Source: an uncultured Lachnospiraceae bacterium
GTDB taxonomy: Bacteria > Bacillota > Clostridia > Lachnospirales > Lachnospiraceae
Direction: 5' to 3'
Assembly (NCBI GenBank): GCA_944382125.1
Contig: CALWMV010000011.1
Coordinates: 1 to 34,291, forward strand
Length of the DNA stretch: 34,291 bases
Position numbers and translations under genes: made by a program. Positions 1-23,544 of this stretch are shown piece after piece. The first letter of the stretch is position 1. Every line of letters begins with the position of its first letter. Under the pieces are notes generated by a model. The model did no database searches and was not told the origin of the DNA. It was given only the letters and a program-made list of their open reading frames with translations.

Positions 1-802
1 AGCAGGGCTGGCAGTAATTGCATCTGCGGCAGAAGTTCTCTCCCAGCTCTCCTCTTACCTTGTCAAAGCCCTGCTTTTCCTCCTCGGTAAGGGGTGACTC
101 ATCCAGCACTGCCTCTATGTTCTGCTTTGCCTCCTCAACGCTGTACATGCCCGGGATGACTATGGTCACATCAGGATTGGCGCAGATATATCTGAGGGCC
201 AGCCTGCCGTCCTCTATGGCTCCTCCTGCCAGAGGCTTCATGTCTATGAAGCCCACATTCTTCTCTGCAGCCTTCCTGATGAGCTCGGTTCCCTGAAACT
301 CTACTATGTTGTAGGGGAACATGATGGTCTCTATCTCGTCAAGGGAAAGGCCCTTTTCAAATACTTCAGTAGAGTGAGCAGTAAGTCCGATATGGCCTAT
401 CTTTCCTTCGGCCTTTGCCTCCCTGAGAGCCTCCATGGCTCCTCCCTCTGAGAGTATCTTCTCAAGATTCTCCATGCTGGGGTTATGTATCTGATAAAGG
501 TCAATATAGTCTGTTTTGAAATTCTTAAGGCTTGTGTCTATGTCCCGTGCCATGTCCTCCTTTGTCACGGACATGCTCTTTGTGGCTATGATGAAGCGAT
601 CCCTGTGACCCTCCATGGCCTCTCCCAGCAGGGCCTCACTTACGGTATATCCTCTGGCGCTGTCCACATAGTTGACTCCCTGTTCCATCAGATACATCAG
701 AAGCTCCTTTACCTCCTCAGCACTGTTCTTCTGGATGGGGATACCGCCAAGTCCTATTTTTGATACCTTAAGCCCTGTCTTTCCCAAAGTAACATACTTC
801 AT
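1..802 (-). CDS. Aldo/keto reductase with C-terminal Fe-S cysteine cluster (3' end outside window)
   Basis: A NADPH-dependent (beta/alpha)8-barrel oxidoreductase of the aldo/keto reductase superfamily; the substrate is unknown. The frame starts at an ATG (800-802) with TAGGAGGT about 10 bases upstream (813-820) and runs off the window edge, giving 267 visible residues. It begins MKYVTLGKTGLKVSKIGLGG. The family tetrad is visible as the Asp and Tyr of NYVDSARGYT, the Lys of IATKS and the His of LYQIHNP. The visible end carries four cysteines in a C-x2-C-x2-C-x2-C arrangement (residues 258, 261, 264, 267). This fits the subfamily of these reductases that carries a C-terminal 4Fe-4S-type cluster. 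The gene is separated from the ABC transporter upstream by a terminator, so it is probably transcribed alone. The family call is secure; the reaction is not. Confidence 0.9.
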   Translation of the reverse strand, partial: MKYVTLGKTGLKVSKIGLGGIPIQKNSAEEVKELLMYLMEQGVNYVDSARGYTVSEALLGEAMEGHRDRFIIATKSMSVTKEDMARDIDTSLKNFKTDYIDLYQIHNPSMENLEKILSEGGAMEALREAKAEGKIGHIGLTAHSTEVFEKGLSLDEIETIMFPYNIVEFQGTELIRKAAEKNVGFIDMKPLAGGAIEDGRLALRYICANPDVTIVIPGMYSVEEAKQNIEAVLDESPLTEEEKQGFDKVRGELGENFCRRCNYCQPC

Positions 803-849
803 ACAGTCACATACCTCCTACATTTATTTTCAGGTCCCTTTTACGGGCT

Positions 850-870
850 TATCTGCCCATGGGACAGATA
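850..870. promoter_or_regulatory. Near-perfect 21-base palindrome in the leader of the aldo/keto reductase gene
   Basis: TATCTG and CAGATA arms flank a self-complementary CCCATGGG core with a single unpaired base. It lies between the putative -10 element and the ribosome binding site of the reductase gene, where an operator or an mRNA hairpin would act. No known regulator site was recognised. Confidence 0.4.
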
Positions 871-876
871 CTTTGC

Positions 877-907
877 TTTATACATATCTCTTCATCTATG
901 CCGTAAA
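877..907 (-). promoter_or_regulatory. Possible promoter of the aldo/keto reductase gene
   Basis: Minus-strand TTTACG (902-907) and TATAAA (877-882) are separated by 19 bases, in the only space between the upstream terminator and the gene. The -35 match is poor and the spacer is long. A long spacer occurs at MerR-type activated promoters, but nothing else supports that here. Confidence 0.3.
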
Positions 908-909
908 TC

Positions 910-950
910 AAAAAACCGCCGACATACTCTATAAATAGTACGCCAAGCGG
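910..950 (-). terminator. Rho-independent terminator after the ABC transporter operon
   Basis: On the minus strand an imperfect stem of about 12 pairs (arms 937-950 and 916-928, loop 929-936) is followed by six Ts (plus-strand A run 910-915). It lies about 90 bases past the last permease stop codon and ends the four-gene operon. Confidence 0.75.
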
Positions 951-1038
951 CTTTTTACGTCAATGAAAAATACTCAATATTTCAAGCTGAAGATCTGACA
1001 GCTCAAAATCTTATGACCGTAAGATCGATGCCAGGGCA

Positions 1039-2541
1039 TCAGGGCCAGATGACTGACTTTACGGCATCAGTATTTTCTTCGTCACCGGCTGTCTTCTTTA
1101 CGACCTTCTTATCCTTTTTCTTCCATGCATGCATGGCCAGGGATACCGCGATGACACCGTAGCATATGAACATACGGATGTACTCACTTATCGCAGAGTC
1201 TCCGATGATCTGGGTGGCCGCAAGGGGTGCGACCACAAACAGGGTGTGGAACAGCACGACGCCTATGATCGCCTGTCTGTTATTGGCCTTCTGCACGCTT
1301 GCTCCGCCGACCAGCAGGGCTGCAACCGCATAAAGTCCTACGTTGGACTGCTGCTGCACAGTGTTGAAAGTACCCAGGTTCTGAAGATATATGAGCTGTC
1401 CCCAGGCAGCAAGCACTGTGGATATGCAGGTAGCCGTGATACGTATCTTGTCCACATTGATACCTGCGGAACCTGCCACTATACGGTTCTGTCCCACGGT
1501 CCTCATGTCCTGTCCGAGCTTGGTATCAAGTATCCAGTTATTAAAGAAGCAGAACAGGCAGATGACTGCATAGGTACATGCAGAGATGCTTACGCTCTTA
1601 AGTATGTCCCTGATGGCAGGTATATAGCTGAGAGCAAGGACTGCGGCGGTAAGCACTGCCGTCTTAACGAGCTTGTCCTTCGTTATGTCCCTCTTAAGGG
1701 CAAACTTCCTTATAACGAGGGAAAGAAGGTAAACTATCATGGCTATACGGAGTGTATCGCTCAGTATAAGCCTTGTGCCTCCGATCATGGCGCTTATGCC
1801 GGGCACTGCCATGAGCACGAAGGAAAGTACCAGACCTATGGCTGAGGCAATGATCTTGCCCATGCTCTCCTTCTTATCAACAGTCATGTTCTTTTTGCTT
1901 CCGAAGACGATATTGATAAGCTGAACAACTATTATGAACAGCATCAGTATGCGGAATACCGTTACAAAGCTTATATCATCCAGAGCATACTTTATGCTGT
2001 CTGAAAGATCAAAGGCATTTCTGAGTCCGAAGCCTCGATCCAGCAGGTTGGGATCATCGTAGGGGATAAGTCCTCCTATGATGTAGAGGGTGAACAGTCT
2101 GTATACTCCGTCTGCGAAGAATCCGAGCACCAGACCGGTGATCATCTCTGATCCCTTGGTCTTGTTGAAGAGTATACCCAGAAGCCATCCGAAAAGTATG
2201 GCCATGGGTGTTGCAAACAGGGCGCAGAGCATGAAGCCTCCGATGCCCGTAAAGCCCCAGTGTACCACAAAAAATATGGCGATCTGGGCTGCTATCGCAC
2301 CTACTACTATACCGAAGTTCATACCCAGTCCTGCAAGGCAGGGGATGATCAGGGCAAGTACCAGGCAGGCGTTCCTTCCGAATCTGGAAAACACCTCTGA
2401 GGCGATATAGTTGAGGGAGGTGTTCGATGCGGCTATACAGCCGATGCAGAGCACCGTAAAGAGTATTATGACCTTGTTCTTGAACAATACGTTCTTAGCG
2501 TAGCTGCCGAAGGAGATCTTTTTCTCTGTATTATTCTTCAT
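1039..2541 (-). CDS. ABC importer permease (RbsC/BPD_transp_2 type), second permease of the DUF3798 system
   Basis: Integral membrane permease of about 500 residues, longer than the usual 320-370 for this family. It is almost entirely hydrophobic helices, with a charged C-terminal tail (KKKDKKVVKK). The family-type glycine-rich stretch is seen near the N-terminus (GLGMNFGIVVG). The cytoplasmic coupling region (AGSAGINVDKIRI, then LYAVAALLVGGAS) closely matches the partner permease encoded just upstream, so the two probably form a heterodimeric channel. The ATG at 2541 is chosen over the longer frame (to 2589) because AGGGAGG lies about 8 bases upstream. With this start the gene overlaps the preceding permease by 11 bases, which suggests translational coupling. 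It is the last gene of the operon, before a terminator at 910-950. The substrate is unknown. Confidence 0.9.
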   Translation of the reverse strand: MKNNTEKKISFGSYAKNVLFKNKVIILFTVLCIGCIAASNTSLNYIASEVFSRFGRNACLVLALIIPCLAGLGMNFGIVVGAIAAQIAIFFVVHWGFTGIGGFMLCALFATPMAILFGWLLGILFNKTKGSEMITGLVLGFFADGVYRLFTLYIIGGLIPYDDPNLLDRGFGLRNAFDLSDSIKYALDDISFVTVFRILMLFIIVVQLINIVFGSKKNMTVDKKESMGKIIASAIGLVLSFVLMAVPGISAMIGGTRLILSDTLRIAMIVYLLSLVIRKFALKRDITKDKLVKTAVLTAAVLALSYIPAIRDILKSVSISACTYAVICLFCFFNNWILDTKLGQDMRTVGQNRIVAGSAGINVDKIRITATCISTVLAAWGQLIYLQNLGTFNTVQQQSNVGLYAVAALLVGGASVQKANNRQAIIGVVLFHTLFVVAPLAATQIIGDSAISEYIRMFICYGVIAVSLAMHAWKKKDKKVVKKTAGDEENTDAVKSVIWP

Positions 2542-18040: not shown

Positions 18041-19234
18041 CTAATTCTTCCAGGGTATACTAAAATCAGCCCGGTATCCCTTTATGATACTTGTGCCGAT
18101 ATTTTTTGCAATATCATATATATTGCGAAGCTCCTTTATGAGCAGGCTGTCATAAAAATCCGAAAGCTCTTTTCTGGTCCATCTTCCGGTCAATAACCTT
18201 GTTATCTTATAATCTCCAAGAAGCTTCCACATCATAAGCGAGGCAGCTACTGATATCGCCGTTATAAAGATGATATCCGTCATGTAATAGATATCAGGCG
18301 GTACAGCCAGGTTAAACTGGCTCCAGTTCATCCTGCCAAAGGCTATCATTATAAGATAAGCCGGTTTGAATCCCAGGAAATGAAGGCACATGACGCTCAT
18401 CGTATTCCTTCCAAGATAGAGAAGGGGCTGTTTTATCCGCCCAAGGGCTGCCAGTGCCTGAGATATATGGATCAGGATCAGGATCCCGAACAGGGGCATG
18501 ATCATATCAGCCATACCGTTGAACTTAAATGTAGGCCAGTTCATGGTATCGCAAAGTCCCATGTTCGTCATGATAACCCATATAGCGGCAATTATACAAG
18601 CCTTTAATACAGTCCATGACAGTTTTCCTTCTTTCAGCACATTTTTAAACATCCAGCCCAGGGCCATGTAATACTGCGCCTTCAGTGCCTGTACCCAGGT
18701 CGAAGGATCCATGGAAAGGGAAAGGAGGAACAGACAGATGCTCATGAGCATCAGGCAGGCTTTATTCCTTTTTGCAAGCCTGATCTCAATGTCAAAAAGG
18801 CAGGCAGCCCAGAACATCACCACCAGATACCAGGTAGCGCCGAACCACTCACAGTTAGTTCCTCCAAGGCGAAGCGCCTCCATTATCTTCCACTGAAGAT
18901 CGGCATGATAGACACCGCTGCAGATAAAGCCTGCAATGCCAAGCTTCTCCAGTATATCTATCACTGCCAGTCCCGCAAGATTAAGGAAATAATAGGGAAG
19001 CAGCAATGTCAGTGTTTTTTTTATCACTGCCTCAAAGAGGCTCCCCTGCCCCTTGTTGGTATATCCTGATATAAAGAAAAATGCTGCTACATGAAATTGA
19101 TAAACATAATCATTGAACCTTCCGGATACATGGGCGATAACGATCAGCAATATGGCCATCCCCTTGAAAATATCGCACCACTCTATCCGCTTTGTTCCAT
19201 TCTTCAGCATCTGATCTAAAGTTTCCTTTGCCAT
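18041..19234 (-). CDS. Membrane acyltransferase (acyltransferase 3 family)
   Basis: Polytopic membrane protein of 397 residues with about ten hydrophobic helices. Its N-terminus (KRIEWCDIFKGMAILLIVIAHVSG) carries the family motif with the conserved histidine (His35). Such enzymes transfer O-acetyl or other acyl groups to extracellular sugars, peptidoglycan or teichoic acids. The subgroup resembles fucose-O-acetylase-like proteins. The C-terminus is a soluble tail of about 60 residues. The ribosome binding site is weak (AAGGA about 17 bases upstream), so the start could be a few codons further in. It follows another acyltransferase by 18 bases, suggesting joint action on a surface glycan, but no glycosyltransferase gene is nearby to name the substrate. 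Confidence 0.88.
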   Translation of the reverse strand: MAKETLDQMLKNGTKRIEWCDIFKGMAILLIVIAHVSGRFNDYVYQFHVAAFFFISGYTNKGQGSLFEAVIKKTLTLLLPYYFLNLAGLAVIDILEKLGIAGFICSGVYHADLQWKIMEALRLGGTNCEWFGATWYLVVMFWAACLFDIEIRLAKRNKACLMLMSICLFLLSLSMDPSTWVQALKAQYYMALGWMFKNVLKEGKLSWTVLKACIIAAIWVIMTNMGLCDTMNWPTFKFNGMADMIMPLFGILILIHISQALAALGRIKQPLLYLGRNTMSVMCLHFLGFKPAYLIMIAFGRMNWSQFNLAVPPDIYYMTDIIFITAISVAASLMMWKLLGDYKITRLLTGRWTRKELSDFYDSLLIKELRNIYDIAKNIGTSIIKGYRADFSIPWKN

Positions 19235-19252
19235 GACCGTAAATGATATCCT

Positions 19253-20326
19253 TTAACCTTCCATATGCCCATCAATATACTTTATGGCCCCCCTGCCTGC
19301 ATCTTCAATAAATACATGAAACAGCAGCGCCATGACAGCTGTCACCAGTCCTGACAATATCAGATCGATCAGGACTGCAGGCCCTAAGCGCAGCCCTGCA
19401 GAAAGAAGCTTTATATAGAGCCATGAGGAGAAGCTGATGATGACCGGCCAGTGCAGGACATAGAAAGGATACGCCAGCTTTCCGCCGAAAAGCATCAGTT
19501 TATTGCCAAGTATCTTTTCACTGATGGGGCTTCCTAAAACGGTAAGAAAGAATAATTCCAGATATACCGCAAACAGCATCCTCATGATCTTATTTGCATC
19601 ATCGATATCCATCATGCTGATGCCGATAAAGGAGATCAGGAACAGGATGAAAGCGATAAACTTCCTGGCTTCAAGCCATCGGATCATGGCTCCGTCAGCA
19701 TAGAGCTCTCCTGCTATCATGCCAAGGATAAAATAATTATAGTATGTATTAAAGACGAAAAGTATTATCAGGTATACGATGAAGCGCAGGGTGCGATCCC
19801 CCCTGCAGAGGCCTATGATGGCAAGCACCAGCAGACTACCAAGAAACATATATATCATGATCCGGAGCGGGCCTATATAGATGCTGTCTCCAGTAAGATA
19901 ACAGGTAAATAAGGCCTCTTTGATGCATCCGGAAAGGCTGGGGACAAAATTATTGAAGGCCGCAAGGAATCCCTGTGAACCGCTCAGGGCTGCTGCTTCT
20001 GCATTGAAGAGAAGTCCGCAGGACATAAGGCCATATACCAGCAGATTGGCTGCAAGAACGGTGGGAACAAGCCTGAAGTAAAGCTTCAGCATATCCTGCC
20101 TTACATCATATGATCCCTTTTTGAAATACCTGCAGCTTATCAGGATCCCGCTGATTACAAAAAGTATCCTCACTGCGATATCCCCGGATGAAGTAAAGAG
20201 CCTCAGCGGAGTACTGTCTGTCCATAATTCAGTGTTCGGGAAAAAGGCGAGTCTGAAATGGCTCAGAAATACGCTTATGCATGCCAATATTCGAATACCT
20301 TCAAGACTTTTAAGCCTTTTGTCCAT
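19253..20326 (-). CDS. Membrane acyltransferase (acyltransferase 3 / OatA-like family)
   Basis: Polytopic membrane protein of 357 residues. It starts MDKRLKSLEGIRILACISVF and carries the family Arg12 and His23 (FLSH) motif, then AVRILFVISGILIS and a C-terminal helix with FYVLHWPVI. These are typical of acyltransferase 3 enzymes that O-acetylate cell-surface polymers. The ATG at 20326 is chosen because GGAG lies 9 bases upstream; an in-frame ATG 5 codons further out (20341) has no such site. Its own extended -10 promoter lies upstream. It is similar in fold but clearly different in sequence from the next acyltransferase, so the two are not a recent duplication. Confidence 0.88.
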   Translation of the reverse strand: MDKRLKSLEGIRILACISVFLSHFRLAFFPNTELWTDSTPLRLFTSSGDIAVRILFVISGILISCRYFKKGSYDVRQDMLKLYFRLVPTVLAANLLVYGLMSCGLLFNAEAAALSGSQGFLAAFNNFVPSLSGCIKEALFTCYLTGDSIYIGPLRIMIYMFLGSLLVLAIIGLCRGDRTLRFIVYLIILFVFNTYYNYFILGMIAGELYADGAMIRWLEARKFIAFILFLISFIGISMMDIDDANKIMRMLFAVYLELFFLTVLGSPISEKILGNKLMLFGGKLAYPFYVLHWPVIISFSSWLYIKLLSAGLRLGPAVLIDLILSGLVTAVMALLFHVFIEDAGRGAIKYIDGHMEG

Positions 20327-20354
20327 AACTAAATTCTCCATGATTCGTTCGGAT

Positions 20355-20457: not shown

Positions 20458-20724
20458 TTACTTTCTGATTCCAAGCCTTGCGATAAGTGTTCTGTATCCC
20501 TCAAGGTTCTTCTTTGCATAGTAGTCAAGAAGTCCTCTTCTGCGTCCTACCATCATCAGAAGTCCTCTTCTGGAGTGGTGATCCTTGGGGTTCTTCTTAA
20601 GGTGCTCGGTAAGCTCGTTGATCCTCTCTGTAAGTACTGCGATCTGTACCTCGGGTGATCCTGTGTCGTGCTCGTCACGGCCGAACTCCTTCATGATCTG
20701 CTGCTTCTTCTCTTTTGCTATCAT
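20458..20724 (-). CDS. rpsO: Ribosomal protein S15
   Basis: An 88-residue 30S subunit protein of normal length that binds 16S rRNA in the central domain. The family blocks [22 protein letters not shown] and [21 protein letters not shown] are intact. The ATG has AGGAGG 7 bases upstream. It is preceded by its own promoter and a structured leader of about 100 bases, so its level can be set separately from the truB-ribF gene upstream. S15 commonly represses its own translation by binding the leader. Confidence 0.98.
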
Positions 20725-20831: not shown

Positions 20832-20860
20832 ATTGTATCATCTATCCGCCGAAAATACAA
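20832..20860 (-). promoter_or_regulatory. Promoter of rpsO, overlapping the end of truB-ribF
   Basis: Minus-strand TTGTAT (20855-20860) and an extended -10 TGATACAAT (hexamer 20832-20837) are separated by 17 bases. The elements overlap the last codons of the upstream fused gene. Confidence 0.6.
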
Positions 20861-22484
20861 GTGTTTTTTCGTCAGCATGCCTCCTGCCTTCCTGATAAAC
20901 AGCGAGGAACTGCCTTGCTTCCTCCACATCTTTCCCGAGCAGCTGCTCCCTGAGCTCCTCTATGCCGGCAAATTTCTTTTCAGGCCTTATGAAGCGAAGG
21001 AGCTTCACCCTTATCTCGCGCCCATAGGCATCGCCCTCGTATCCGAAGACAAATGTCTCAAGCCATATCCTGCCCTTATAGATATCATCGGCGCTGACCG
21101 TGGGCTTCAGTCCCAGGTTGGCTATGCCGTCATAGGTCTCAGTTTCGCCTCCATCACGATCAAGGAAGGAAAGCCTCACTGCATAAACTCCGAAGGGCGG
21201 ACAGATAAGCTCCTTCGGCATCTCCAGGTTCATGGTGGGGAATCCAAGCACCGAGGTGCCTATGTGCCTTCCATGCACCACGGTCCCTGTCACGCTCCAG
21301 GGCTTTCCGAGAAGCTGCTCTGCCTCCTCCATGCCTCCTACGGTAATGATGCGCTTTATCAGGGTGGAGCTTATGGCTTCTCCGTTTTTCAGTCTCAGCT
21401 TCTCCACCGGGATGAAATTATAACCGTACTTTTCCTTATTAGCCTCCAGGAAATGTACATTGCCCTCCTTCTTATATCCGAAGGTCACATCCTCACCGGC
21501 CACCAATACCTTCATGCCATAGCGGTCCATCAGCATCTTCTTAAGGAAATCATCGGCGCTGACCGCCATAAGCTCCTTTCCGAGCCTGAGCCTGATCACA
21601 TAGTCCATGCCCATGGAAAGAAGCTCTCTCTTTACCTCATCGCGCTGGATTATATATCCGTCTCCCAGGTCAAGCATTATGACACAGGTCCTGAGCCTCC
21701 TTCGCTGGGCTTCGGTCATCAGCTTCCGGAATATCCTCTCATGTCCCATATGGGCCCCGTCAAATTTGCCCAGGGCTACCGCACAGTCAGAAGCTATCCA
21801 GAGGACTTCCCCTATCCTGCCCTCATCTCTGAGCCTCTCGACATCAGACAGCTTCAGCGCAGTATCTATCCTGATATCTCCCACGGCAAGCCTTGTGAGC
21901 TCCTCCATACAGGCGCCGGGCCCAAGCCTGTCTCCCATATCACTGCAGAGGGTACGTATATAGGTGCCCTTTGTACAGGTCACTGTAAATGTGACTCTGG
22001 GAAGGCTTATGTCCTCGATAACTATGCTGAGGATCTCCACTGCTTTTTTCTTCCGCTCAACCTCTATGCCCTTTCTGGCATATTCGTAAAGCTTCTTCCC
22101 AGCCACCTTTCTGGCGGAATACATGGGCGTAAGCTGCATATATGTGCCGAGGAATGAATCGGCTGCAGCCCTTATCTCCTCATCGGAAAATGCCGGCACT
22201 TCCTTCTCCACTATGATGGTGCCGGTGATATCCTGAGTATCCGTGCTGACTCCCAGGAGCATCACGGCCCTGTATACCTTGGTGCCGTTCCCTATCCTGT
22301 CTATATCCTTGGTGGCTCTGCCGAGAGCCACGGGCAGCACGCCTTCAGCCATGGGATCCAGGGTTCCTGCATGTCCGATCTTCCGCATGCCGAGTATGCC
22401 CCTCAGCTTGGCGCAGACATCCATGGAGGTAAAGCCCTGTTCCTTATATATATTTATAAAGCCGTTGTAGGGGTTTTTATTCAT
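20838..22484 (-). CDS. truB-ribF: Fused tRNA pseudouridine-55 synthase (TruB) / riboflavin kinase-FAD synthetase (RibF)
   Basis: One open frame of 548 residues joins two enzymes normally encoded by adjacent genes. Residues 1 to about 228 are the TruB catalytic domain (GHAGTLDPMAEG with nucleophile Asp43; TKGTYIRTLCSDMG), but the usual C-terminal PUA-like domain is missing. RibF follows directly from about 233: nucleotide-binding GKFDGAHMGH (239-248), GEDVTFGYKKEGN, ISST (371-374), and the flavokinase domain with GFPTMNLE (414-421), GVYAV and LETFVF (Glu476). Near residue 271, where a DPHP-like motif often occurs, this protein reads LDLGDGY. Predicted roles are U55 modification of tRNA and conversion of riboflavin to FMN and FAD. 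It overlaps nrnA by 8 bases upstream. Both domains look largely intact. Confidence 0.93.
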   Translation of the reverse strand: MNKNPYNGFINIYKEQGFTSMDVCAKLRGILGMRKIGHAGTLDPMAEGVLPVALGRATKDIDRIGNGTKVYRAVMLLGVSTDTQDITGTIIVEKEVPAFSDEEIRAAADSFLGTYMQLTPMYSARKVAGKKLYEYARKGIEVERKKKAVEILSIVIEDISLPRVTFTVTCTKGTYIRTLCSDMGDRLGPGACMEELTRLAVGDIRIDTALKLSDVERLRDEGRIGEVLWIASDCAVALGKFDGAHMGHERIFRKLMTEAQRRRLRTCVIMLDLGDGYIIQRDEVKRELLSMGMDYVIRLRLGKELMAVSADDFLKKMLMDRYGMKVLVAGEDVTFGYKKEGNVHFLEANKEKYGYNFIPVEKLRLKNGEAISSTLIKRIITVGGMEEAEQLLGKPWSVTGTVVHGRHIGTSVLGFPTMNLEMPKELICPPFGVYAVRLSFLDRDGGETETYDGIANLGLKPTVSADDIYKGRIWLETFVFGYEGDAYGREIRVKLLRFIRPEKKFAGIEELREQLLGKDVEEARQFLAVYQEGRRHADEKTLVFSADR

Positions 22485-23544
22485 GTCCGAGCCTTGCCCC
22501 TATCTCCTTTACAAGTTTTTCGATATTGCCTCTGAGATCCGGTCCCATGAAGCAGCCGGCAGCCCTTACATGGCCTCCGCCTCCGAAAAGTGCAGCCACC
22601 TCTGCCACATTGAGTTCGTCCGTATTGGATCTCAGGCTTACCTTATATGTCCTGTTTTTGCACTGATACATAAATACTGCTCCCAGAGCCCCTCTCGTGG
22701 TCCGGAGCTGATCTATGAATCCGTCCATCTCCTTTTTTGTCACTCCGTAAAGATCCATGGCAGCAGCATCTATATGTCCGATGACCAGCTTTCCGCAAAG
22801 AGCCGTCTCCATCTCCGAGAGCACCCTGCCCAGGGCTTCCTTCTGGTTTTTGGTCATGGAAAAGAAGGAATCATCTATGATCTCTCCGAAGTCTATGCCC
22901 TTTGCCATGCACCTTCCTGCCACCTCCATGGTGTGAGGTGAAGTGCAGCTGTATCTGAATACTCCCGTATCATGCACAAGTCCGGTATAGACCGCCTCTG
23001 CCGTCTCCCTGTCTATATATGACTCATCAAAAAGATCATATACAAGCTCAGAAGTCGAGGAGGCCTGAGGCACGATCAGGGATTCCTCTGCAAAGCCCTC
23101 ATTGGTGACATGATGATCCACGCAGAGGGTCCTGCCCGCCTTTTTGAGCATGGGAAGGAACTTTCCAAGCCTTGAAGTATCTCCGCAGTCCAGGACTATG
23201 GCAAGATCGCAGCTTCTCTTCTCATCAGGCTCATGGCAGATCCTGTCGAAGCCGCAGAGATAGGCAAACTTCTCCGACGCCTCATCAAGATATACCCTTA
23301 TATCGGTGGCTTCCCTGTTATTTTCATCTATCTTCTCTGCCGGGTCCTTTTCAGCTGAATTCTTTTCATCTGAAGGCAGACCTGCTGCGGACTTCCTGTT
23401 TTCTATATATCTTCTTACGGAAAGAGCAGAGCCCAGACAGTCTCCGTCCGGGCTTATATGTCCAAATATACAGACAGATGAGGCCCTGTCTATGGCCTCA
23501 TTGAATATCTGTCTGAATTCAGTTCTGTCAGAATAATTCCTCAT
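22477..23544 (-). CDS. nrnA: DHH/DHHA1 phosphoesterase (NrnA-like oligoribonuclease / pAp phosphatase)
   Basis: Metal-dependent phosphoesterase of 355 residues. Motifs are GHISPDGD (28-35), VLDCGDTS (about 117-124), VDHHVTN (Asp143-His144-His145) and the DHHA1 GGGGHVRAAG near the C-terminus. NrnA degrades very short RNAs and dephosphorylates pAp; it usually lies between rbfA and truB in Bacillota, as here. An extra hydrophilic stretch of about 30 residues, rich in Lys, Glu and Asp, interrupts the domain at about residues 51-80, between the first helix and the second strand. The start overlaps the rbfA stop by 4 bases, and the 3' end overlaps truB-ribF by 8 bases. Confidence 0.92.
   Translation of the reverse strand: MRNYSDRTEFRQIFNEAIDRASSVCIFGHISPDGDCLGSALSVRRYIENRKSAAGLPSDEKNSAEKDPAEKIDENNREATDIRVYLDEASEKFAYLCGFDRICHEPDEKRSCDLAIVLDCGDTSRLGKFLPMLKKAGRTLCVDHHVTNEGFAEESLIVPQASSTSELVYDLFDESYIDRETAEAVYTGLVHDTGVFRYSCTSPHTMEVAGRCMAKGIDFGEIIDDSFFSMTKNQKEALGRVLSEMETALCGKLVIGHIDAAAMDLYGVTKKEMDGFIDQLRTTRGALGAVFMYQCKNRTYKVSLRSNTDELNVAEVAALFGGGGHVRAAGCFMGPDLRGNIEKLVKEIGARLGHE

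Follow-up and report, generated by a model that had tools for sequence, protein, structure and literature searches.

A truB-ribF gene fusion in Lachnospiraceae that lacks the PUA-like C-terminal part of TruB

The genes truB and ribF are joined into one in the window, by which we mean the whole stretch of 34,291 nucleotides analysed here from an uncultured Lachnospiraceae bacterium (contig CALWMV010000011.1). The gene is a single uninterrupted ATG frame of 548 codons on the minus strand (20838-22484); the fusion is confirmed as real, and a single chain of 548 residues is predicted from the frame. The fusion is not a local oddity, as it is common to the genus of the window (g1) and to a second genus of the same family (g202). 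We consider it probable that this is an old, stably inherited TruB-RibF fusion in which the PUA-like part of TruB was lost and the halves most likely act independently. The architecture appears to be new, both families are known, and the activities are predicted.

Results

One frame carries TruB and both RibF modules

The original prediction, made from the bare sequence, of a single-frame TruB-RibF gene was borne out by Pfam and NCBIfam matches to both families in the 548-residue frame, which also contained all the motifs quoted in it. The TruB catalytic domain (residues 1-216; 21837..22484, minus strand, as for all features of the window given below) includes Asp43, Tyr71, Tyr175 and Arg177 and was assigned from TruB_N (residues 28-176, E 9e-52) and from the TruB equivalog TIGR00431, whose cut-off was passed (210.8 bits against 151.45). 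A TruB_C_2 match at residues 177-217 covers 41 of the 66 profile positions. The junction (residues 217-231; 21792..21836), defined as the gap between the TruB and RibF models, lies where the C-terminal part of TruB and the start of RibF would otherwise be. The FMN adenylyltransferase module of RibF, with GxFDGxHxGH and ISST, was matched by FAD_syn (PF06574) at residues 231-374 (21363..21794; E 2e-28), and the riboflavin kinase module, with GFPTMN and Glu476, by Flavokinase (PF01687) at residues 392-527 (20904..21311; E 5e-35). The cut-off of the ribF equivalog TIGR00083 was passed as well (194.3 bits against 184.35), and six other RibF models (PRK05627) matched the protein, each below its own cut-off. 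In the window genome, which is about 90% complete and in 89 contigs, TruB_N, FAD_syn and Flavokinase have one match each, all in the fusion gene.

Upstream, the start of the fusion gene is overlapped by an open reading frame for a DHH phosphoesterase (22477..23544) that we take to be NrnA-like, and the downstream neighbour is a further open reading frame (20458..20724), presumably rpsO-like as recognized from its sequence. Beside the latter lie two proteins (18041-19234 and 19253-20341) described from sequence reading as membrane acyltransferase-like, for which no NCBIfam match was found at E 0.001.

An AlphaFold model of the fusion, built with 22 aligned sequences, reached a mean pLDDT of 91.4 and a pTM of 0.85. 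Parts of this model matched TruB and FAD synthetase structures with Foldseek, and none of the 50 viral fold matches listed spanned both halves. The best solved TruB homologues align to residues 6-220.

The fusion is conserved in the genus of the window

A search of 25 genomes of the genus with the window protein gave the junction in a single frame in 21, the window genome counted in (20 of the 24 others), and 20 of these 21 span TruB through the kinase; in G019 the junction is in frame and a contig end cuts the gene soon after. Unknown residues run over the junction in G020, so that the candidate loss of the FMN adenylyltransferase module in that genome was rejected. Only a RibF fragment was found in G012, and no match to the window protein in G015 and G016 (59% and 78% complete). 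A congener contig named Candidatus Avilachnospira avistercoris (L034) is also fused, with domain rows identical to those of L005 (G009). Inside the genus, identity to the window protein falls from 72% to about 50%, which argues that the fusion is old. A subgroup of the genus (L019-L024) carries inserts of variable length and sequence just before the SST (ISST) motif of the adenylyltransferase.

Distribution beyond the genus

The family survey covered 397 genomes with the window protein as query, and the order, class and phylum surveys 392, 291 and 299 genomes, in overlapping samples, with a profile of 17 fusions. Fusion counts from these surveys hold among the best-matching rows listed, where a weak, low-ranking fused protein could escape and the fusions found rank at the top. 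The search for other single-chain TruB-RibF proteins proposed in the original prediction returned them from the genus itself, from g202 and from one further genome, G653. In g202, one match ran across both halves in all 17 genomes searched, and the ten that were opened were all fused. One of the 17 matches is cut at a contig end and four (G1306, G1309, G1315 and G1316) were flagged with an internal stop; in the two of these four that were opened, G1306 and G1316, a single frame holds both halves. G225, used in several of the analyses below, is a fused member of g202.

G653, of family f5, is fused; it is a single genome, 70% complete and in 350 contigs, and the other 18 genomes compared from its family give two or three matches each. 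In G403 (genus g358), TruB and the FMN adenylyltransferase form a single chain without the kinase module. The adenylyltransferase module has no riboflavin kinase module adjoining it both in this fused locus (L080 3529-4797, plus strand) and in the unfused locus of G467 (L169 1678-2319, plus strand). In the phylum survey, the window genome was the sole fused case among the matches listed.

In other genera truB and ribF occur as two genes in the same order. As far as the source goes in its accessible part, truB lies directly upstream of ribC in Bacillus subtilis; another paper uses truB and ribF as marker genes in mycobacteria. Separate genes in the same surroundings in related genomes had been named beforehand as a finding that would speak against the fusion; they do exist in other genera, but the fusion, common to two genera, is not undermined by them. 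Apparent open frames of about 600-700 residues, which would have joined a full-length TruB to RibF, were rejected on the basis of those opened among L025-L033 and L085-L110, each of which proved to be split by a stop codon into two genes that share a frame.

RibF stands in the place of the TruB C-terminal part

Most bacterial TruB proteins have a PUA-like C-terminal part, which the window protein lacks. Only 15 residues separate the TruB and RibF models in this protein, in agreement with the short junction noted originally, and 15-22 residues do so in 33 of the 33 fused frames opened, which leaves no room for such a part. Its loss, also claimed in the original prediction, was upheld by comparison of lengths: six unfused TruBs extend 67-85 residues past the point where the catalytic domain of the window protein ends. 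The loci opened were tallied with one entry for each genome or record name, and 13 loci were excluded because their TruB match was partial or unknown residues were present. At least 40 residues occupy that place in 76 unfused comparison genomes or records but not in nine other unfused ones, and 35 entries are fused. Two of these 35 duplicate G009 and G003 as named records, leaving 33, and one of the nine (G933) is a frameshift, leaving eight; these short TruBs were opened since they looked short, so that eight of 84 is no frequency.

The tail of unfused TruBs is presumably PUA-like, a name that we take mainly from general knowledge of TruB. Of the two unfused TruBs scanned with Pfam, that of L038 gave TruB-C_2 and PUA_3 matches just under the cut-offs, and that of L036 gave neither. 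The TruB_C_2 match covers 60 of 66 positions in the fused G225 and 44 of 66 in the unfused L038, and a partial match to this profile is therefore no proof, on its own, of tail loss.

The original prediction that RibF had lost its first residues agrees with the alignment, which puts the loss at an estimated six to eight residues, so that it would be small. In the window genome, no in-frame ATG, GTG or TTG was found in the 37 codons preceding the RibF motif, and separate translation of RibF is unlikely there. The same holds for the start codons of six of the 21 g1 frames, the window counted in; the other 15 have at least one possible start within 37 codons of the motif, and so does each of the ten opened frames of g202, where an ATG or GTG at -15 is frequent. 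Separate translation of RibF from such near-junction starts is conceivable in these other g1 and g202 genomes.

Active-site residues are invariant and a flavin-side motif is missing

Asp43, Tyr71, Tyr175 and Arg177 of TruB, which we take to be its catalytic residues, do not vary across the 17 fusions aligned, a set that takes in G225 and leaves out G653 and G403. The set is likewise invariant at Thr417, Asn419 and Glu476 in the kinase and, in the adenylyltransferase, at the HxGH histidines and the SS. The alignments show the nucleotide-side motifs GxFDGxHxGH and SS[TS] to be present, and the window protein also contains PTxN and the catalytic Glu, which are described as riboflavin kinase motifs in the part of PMC2573891 available. 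The original prediction had raised the worry that loss of the PUA-like part might disable TruB. The loss itself stands, and the worry is weakened by the invariance of the catalytic residues and by the TruB domain of human TRUB1, which has been solved alone. According to the accessible text of PMC7912444, human TRUB1 forms Psi55 in the majority of cytoplasmic tRNAs other than PUS10 targets, and the same text reports that a 17-base T-arm analogue is accepted by TruB and its eukaryal orthologues.

The flavin-side motif FxP[HQ]P is absent from the window protein, where its expected site (about residues 266-277; 21654..21689), placed by eye in alignments, is a shortened loop, and from all 21 fused g1 frames. 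Its last Pro is kept in nine of the ten g202 frames opened, and the G653 fusion keeps FDPHP. Among 75 unfused RibF rows compared, 20 lack the looser motif F-x(2,3)-P, a pattern that scored the fused L021 positive by chance (FGKP). That fusion caused the loss of FxPHP was therefore rejected, since unfused rows lack the motif and a fused protein keeps it. The unfused RibFs without FxPHP (L029, L031, L066, L071, L073, L074, L076, L077, L082, L099-L103, L105, L107, L108, L113, L117 and L120) come mostly from the window's own family, f1, and L082 duplicates L029.

In the FAD synthetase of Corynebacterium ammoniagenes, substitutions of P56 and P58 abolish FMN adenylyltransferase activity, and the authors describe P58 as conserved throughout the species that they evaluated (PMC6829536, as far as the part consulted goes). 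FAD formation by the fusion is thus not assured, because the motif whose two prolines are essential in that enzyme is absent. The window genome encodes MnmG and MurB, both of them flavoenzymes with FAD as cofactor, so FAD is presumably needed. We favour the reading that the flavin site would work differently in these RibFs over a supply of FAD from elsewhere.

Short unfused TruBs and the origins of the fusion

Eight genomes (G373, G354, G539, G864, G755, G815, G467 and G618) have a short TruB that is not fused to RibF, and in several of them it abuts or overlaps ribF. The stop of truB overlaps the start of ribF as ATGA in G354, the TAA of truB is followed at once by an in-frame ribF ATG in G539, and a single in-frame stop parts the two frames in G864 and G755. 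G467 and G618 belong to the same family as the fused G653. In G373, the 8 kb examined on either side of and including truB showed no ribF. G933 (L121) was rejected as a short TruB, since its matching sequence continues in another frame through a frameshift or assembly error. The short TruB of G539 is joined instead to the upstream DHH protein, and the locus (L111) reads as an NrnA-like DHH-short TruB fusion (720-2402, plus strand) and then, from 2406 onward, a short RibF with a seemingly degenerate kinase part.

Because these short, still separate TruBs abut or overlap ribF or are parted from it by one stop, they suggest loss of the TruB C-terminal part first and fusion to RibF second as the simplest path. 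The single deletion proposed in the original prediction, removing the stop of one gene and the start of the other, is a possible history, but the short separate TruBs favour the two-step order.

In a tree of TruB plus RibF (100 rows), the 22 g1 rows form one starred branch; G225 groups with G403 (support 96, starred, both on long branches), apart from g1, and G653 is placed beside G539. The label 'fused' changes three times on this tree. The upstream NrnA-like homologue was used from 98 of the 100 loci, L039 being without one and L082 skipped as a duplicate, and its tree places G225 next to g1 (support 90, unstarred) with two label changes. The starred branches of both trees force at least two changes, and a single clade for all fusions was not rejected by the AU test in either (p-AU 0.504 for TruB plus RibF, 0.738 for NrnA-like). 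In a tree of InfB (23 rows), nine g1 and g202 rows are united (UFBoot/SH-aLRT 89/91, in 90% of bootstrap trees). Our reading is that one fusion would have arisen in the ancestor of g1 and g202, against which the TruB plus RibF tree speaks, and that a second, separate one probably arose in f5; the long branch of G403 keeps it from being placed.

Discussion

We propose that two neighbouring housekeeping genes have fused and that the product would have been stably inherited since long ago. The TruB catalytic domain would make pseudouridine 55 in tRNAs and, after the 15-residue linker, the two-module RibF would make FMN and FAD from riboflavin, occupying the place of the lost PUA-like part. If translated as one uncut chain, as the frame predicts, the halves would most likely act independently, with co-expression at a fixed ratio as the main gain.

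We give practically no credence to an assembly or sequencing error, be it an indel or a missed stop, that would have merged two separate genes. The window genome is in 89 contigs and the two genes exist in the same order in other genera, but the same in-frame junction recurs in 20 further members of the genus among those searched and in the ten opened g202 genomes, some with few contigs, and a missed stop would leave the TruB C-terminal part in place. The congeners in effect refute it. A fusion in which one half is a degenerate passenger, either a tail-less inactive TruB or an adenylyltransferase without FxPHP that only holds the kinase, deserves more weight and is still unlikely. The absence of FxPHP from all 21 fused g1 frames speaks for it, together with the need for P56 and P58 in the C. 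ammoniagenes enzyme (PMC6829536, in the portion seen). However, the residues of all three active sites are invariant in 17 fusions, the motif is also missing from 20 of 75 unfused rows and its loss is thus not tied to fusion, and the genome encodes FAD enzymes and has no other FAD_syn match.

RibF might also have replaced the lost PUA-like part in holding RNA, in which case tRNA modification could respond to the binding of flavin or ATP. RibF does sit at the place of that part in all 33 fused frames opened, and the three-domain model has a pTM of 0.85, but short unfused TruBs exist and no substitute is therefore required; we regard this takeover as very improbable. The related conjecture that RibF holds tRNA in place of PUA and that flavin or ATP status tunes Psi55 formation or tRNA folding strikes us as quite improbable. 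If RibF did hold tRNA, the short TruBs of several Clostridia lineages would be stepping stones. An old fusion with independent halves is the reading that we prefer.

The fusion offers a natural experiment on the PUA-like part of TruB, as two genera keep the catalytic residues without it, and it outlines a likely route from two operon neighbours to one gene through domain loss, overlap or an in-frame stop, and fusion. A tRNA chaperone function has also been reported for TruB (PMC13270999, in its accessible part), and a short TruB with invariant active-site residues could be a way to split this role from Psi55 catalysis. In our view, annotation risks naming such proteins after one half only. No published report of a TruB-RibF fusion was found in the literature searched; subscription papers and protein-database annotations, which lay outside that search, may list one.

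Among known systems, the bacterial TruBs of E. coli (1k8w) and Thermotoga (1r3e) share with the fusion the catalytic domain, aligned over residues 6-220 and 8-217 with the conserved residues kept, whereas the window TruB stops at the end of that domain, without the PUA-like C-terminus, and continues into RibF. The RibF/FAD synthetases of C. ammoniagenes (2x0k) and Thermotoga (1mrz) have both modules in the same order, with GxFDGxHxGH, SST, PTxN and the catalytic Glu, and differ in that the window RibF is joined at its N-terminus to TruB and that FxPHP is absent in the window genus. Human TRUB1 is, as a whole protein and to our knowledge, without a PUA domain. Its structure 8jfx ('TruB domain of TruB1') resembles the fusion as a TruB catalytic domain solved alone, and differs in that the solved chain has no RibF part. 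Human TRUB2 is described as a relative of TruB whose PUA domain was lost, and an altered role and mutations in the catalytic domain have been proposed for it (PMC12716993, in the part available). It is thus, like the fusion, a TruB-family protein without PUA, but in the fusion the active-site residues are kept.
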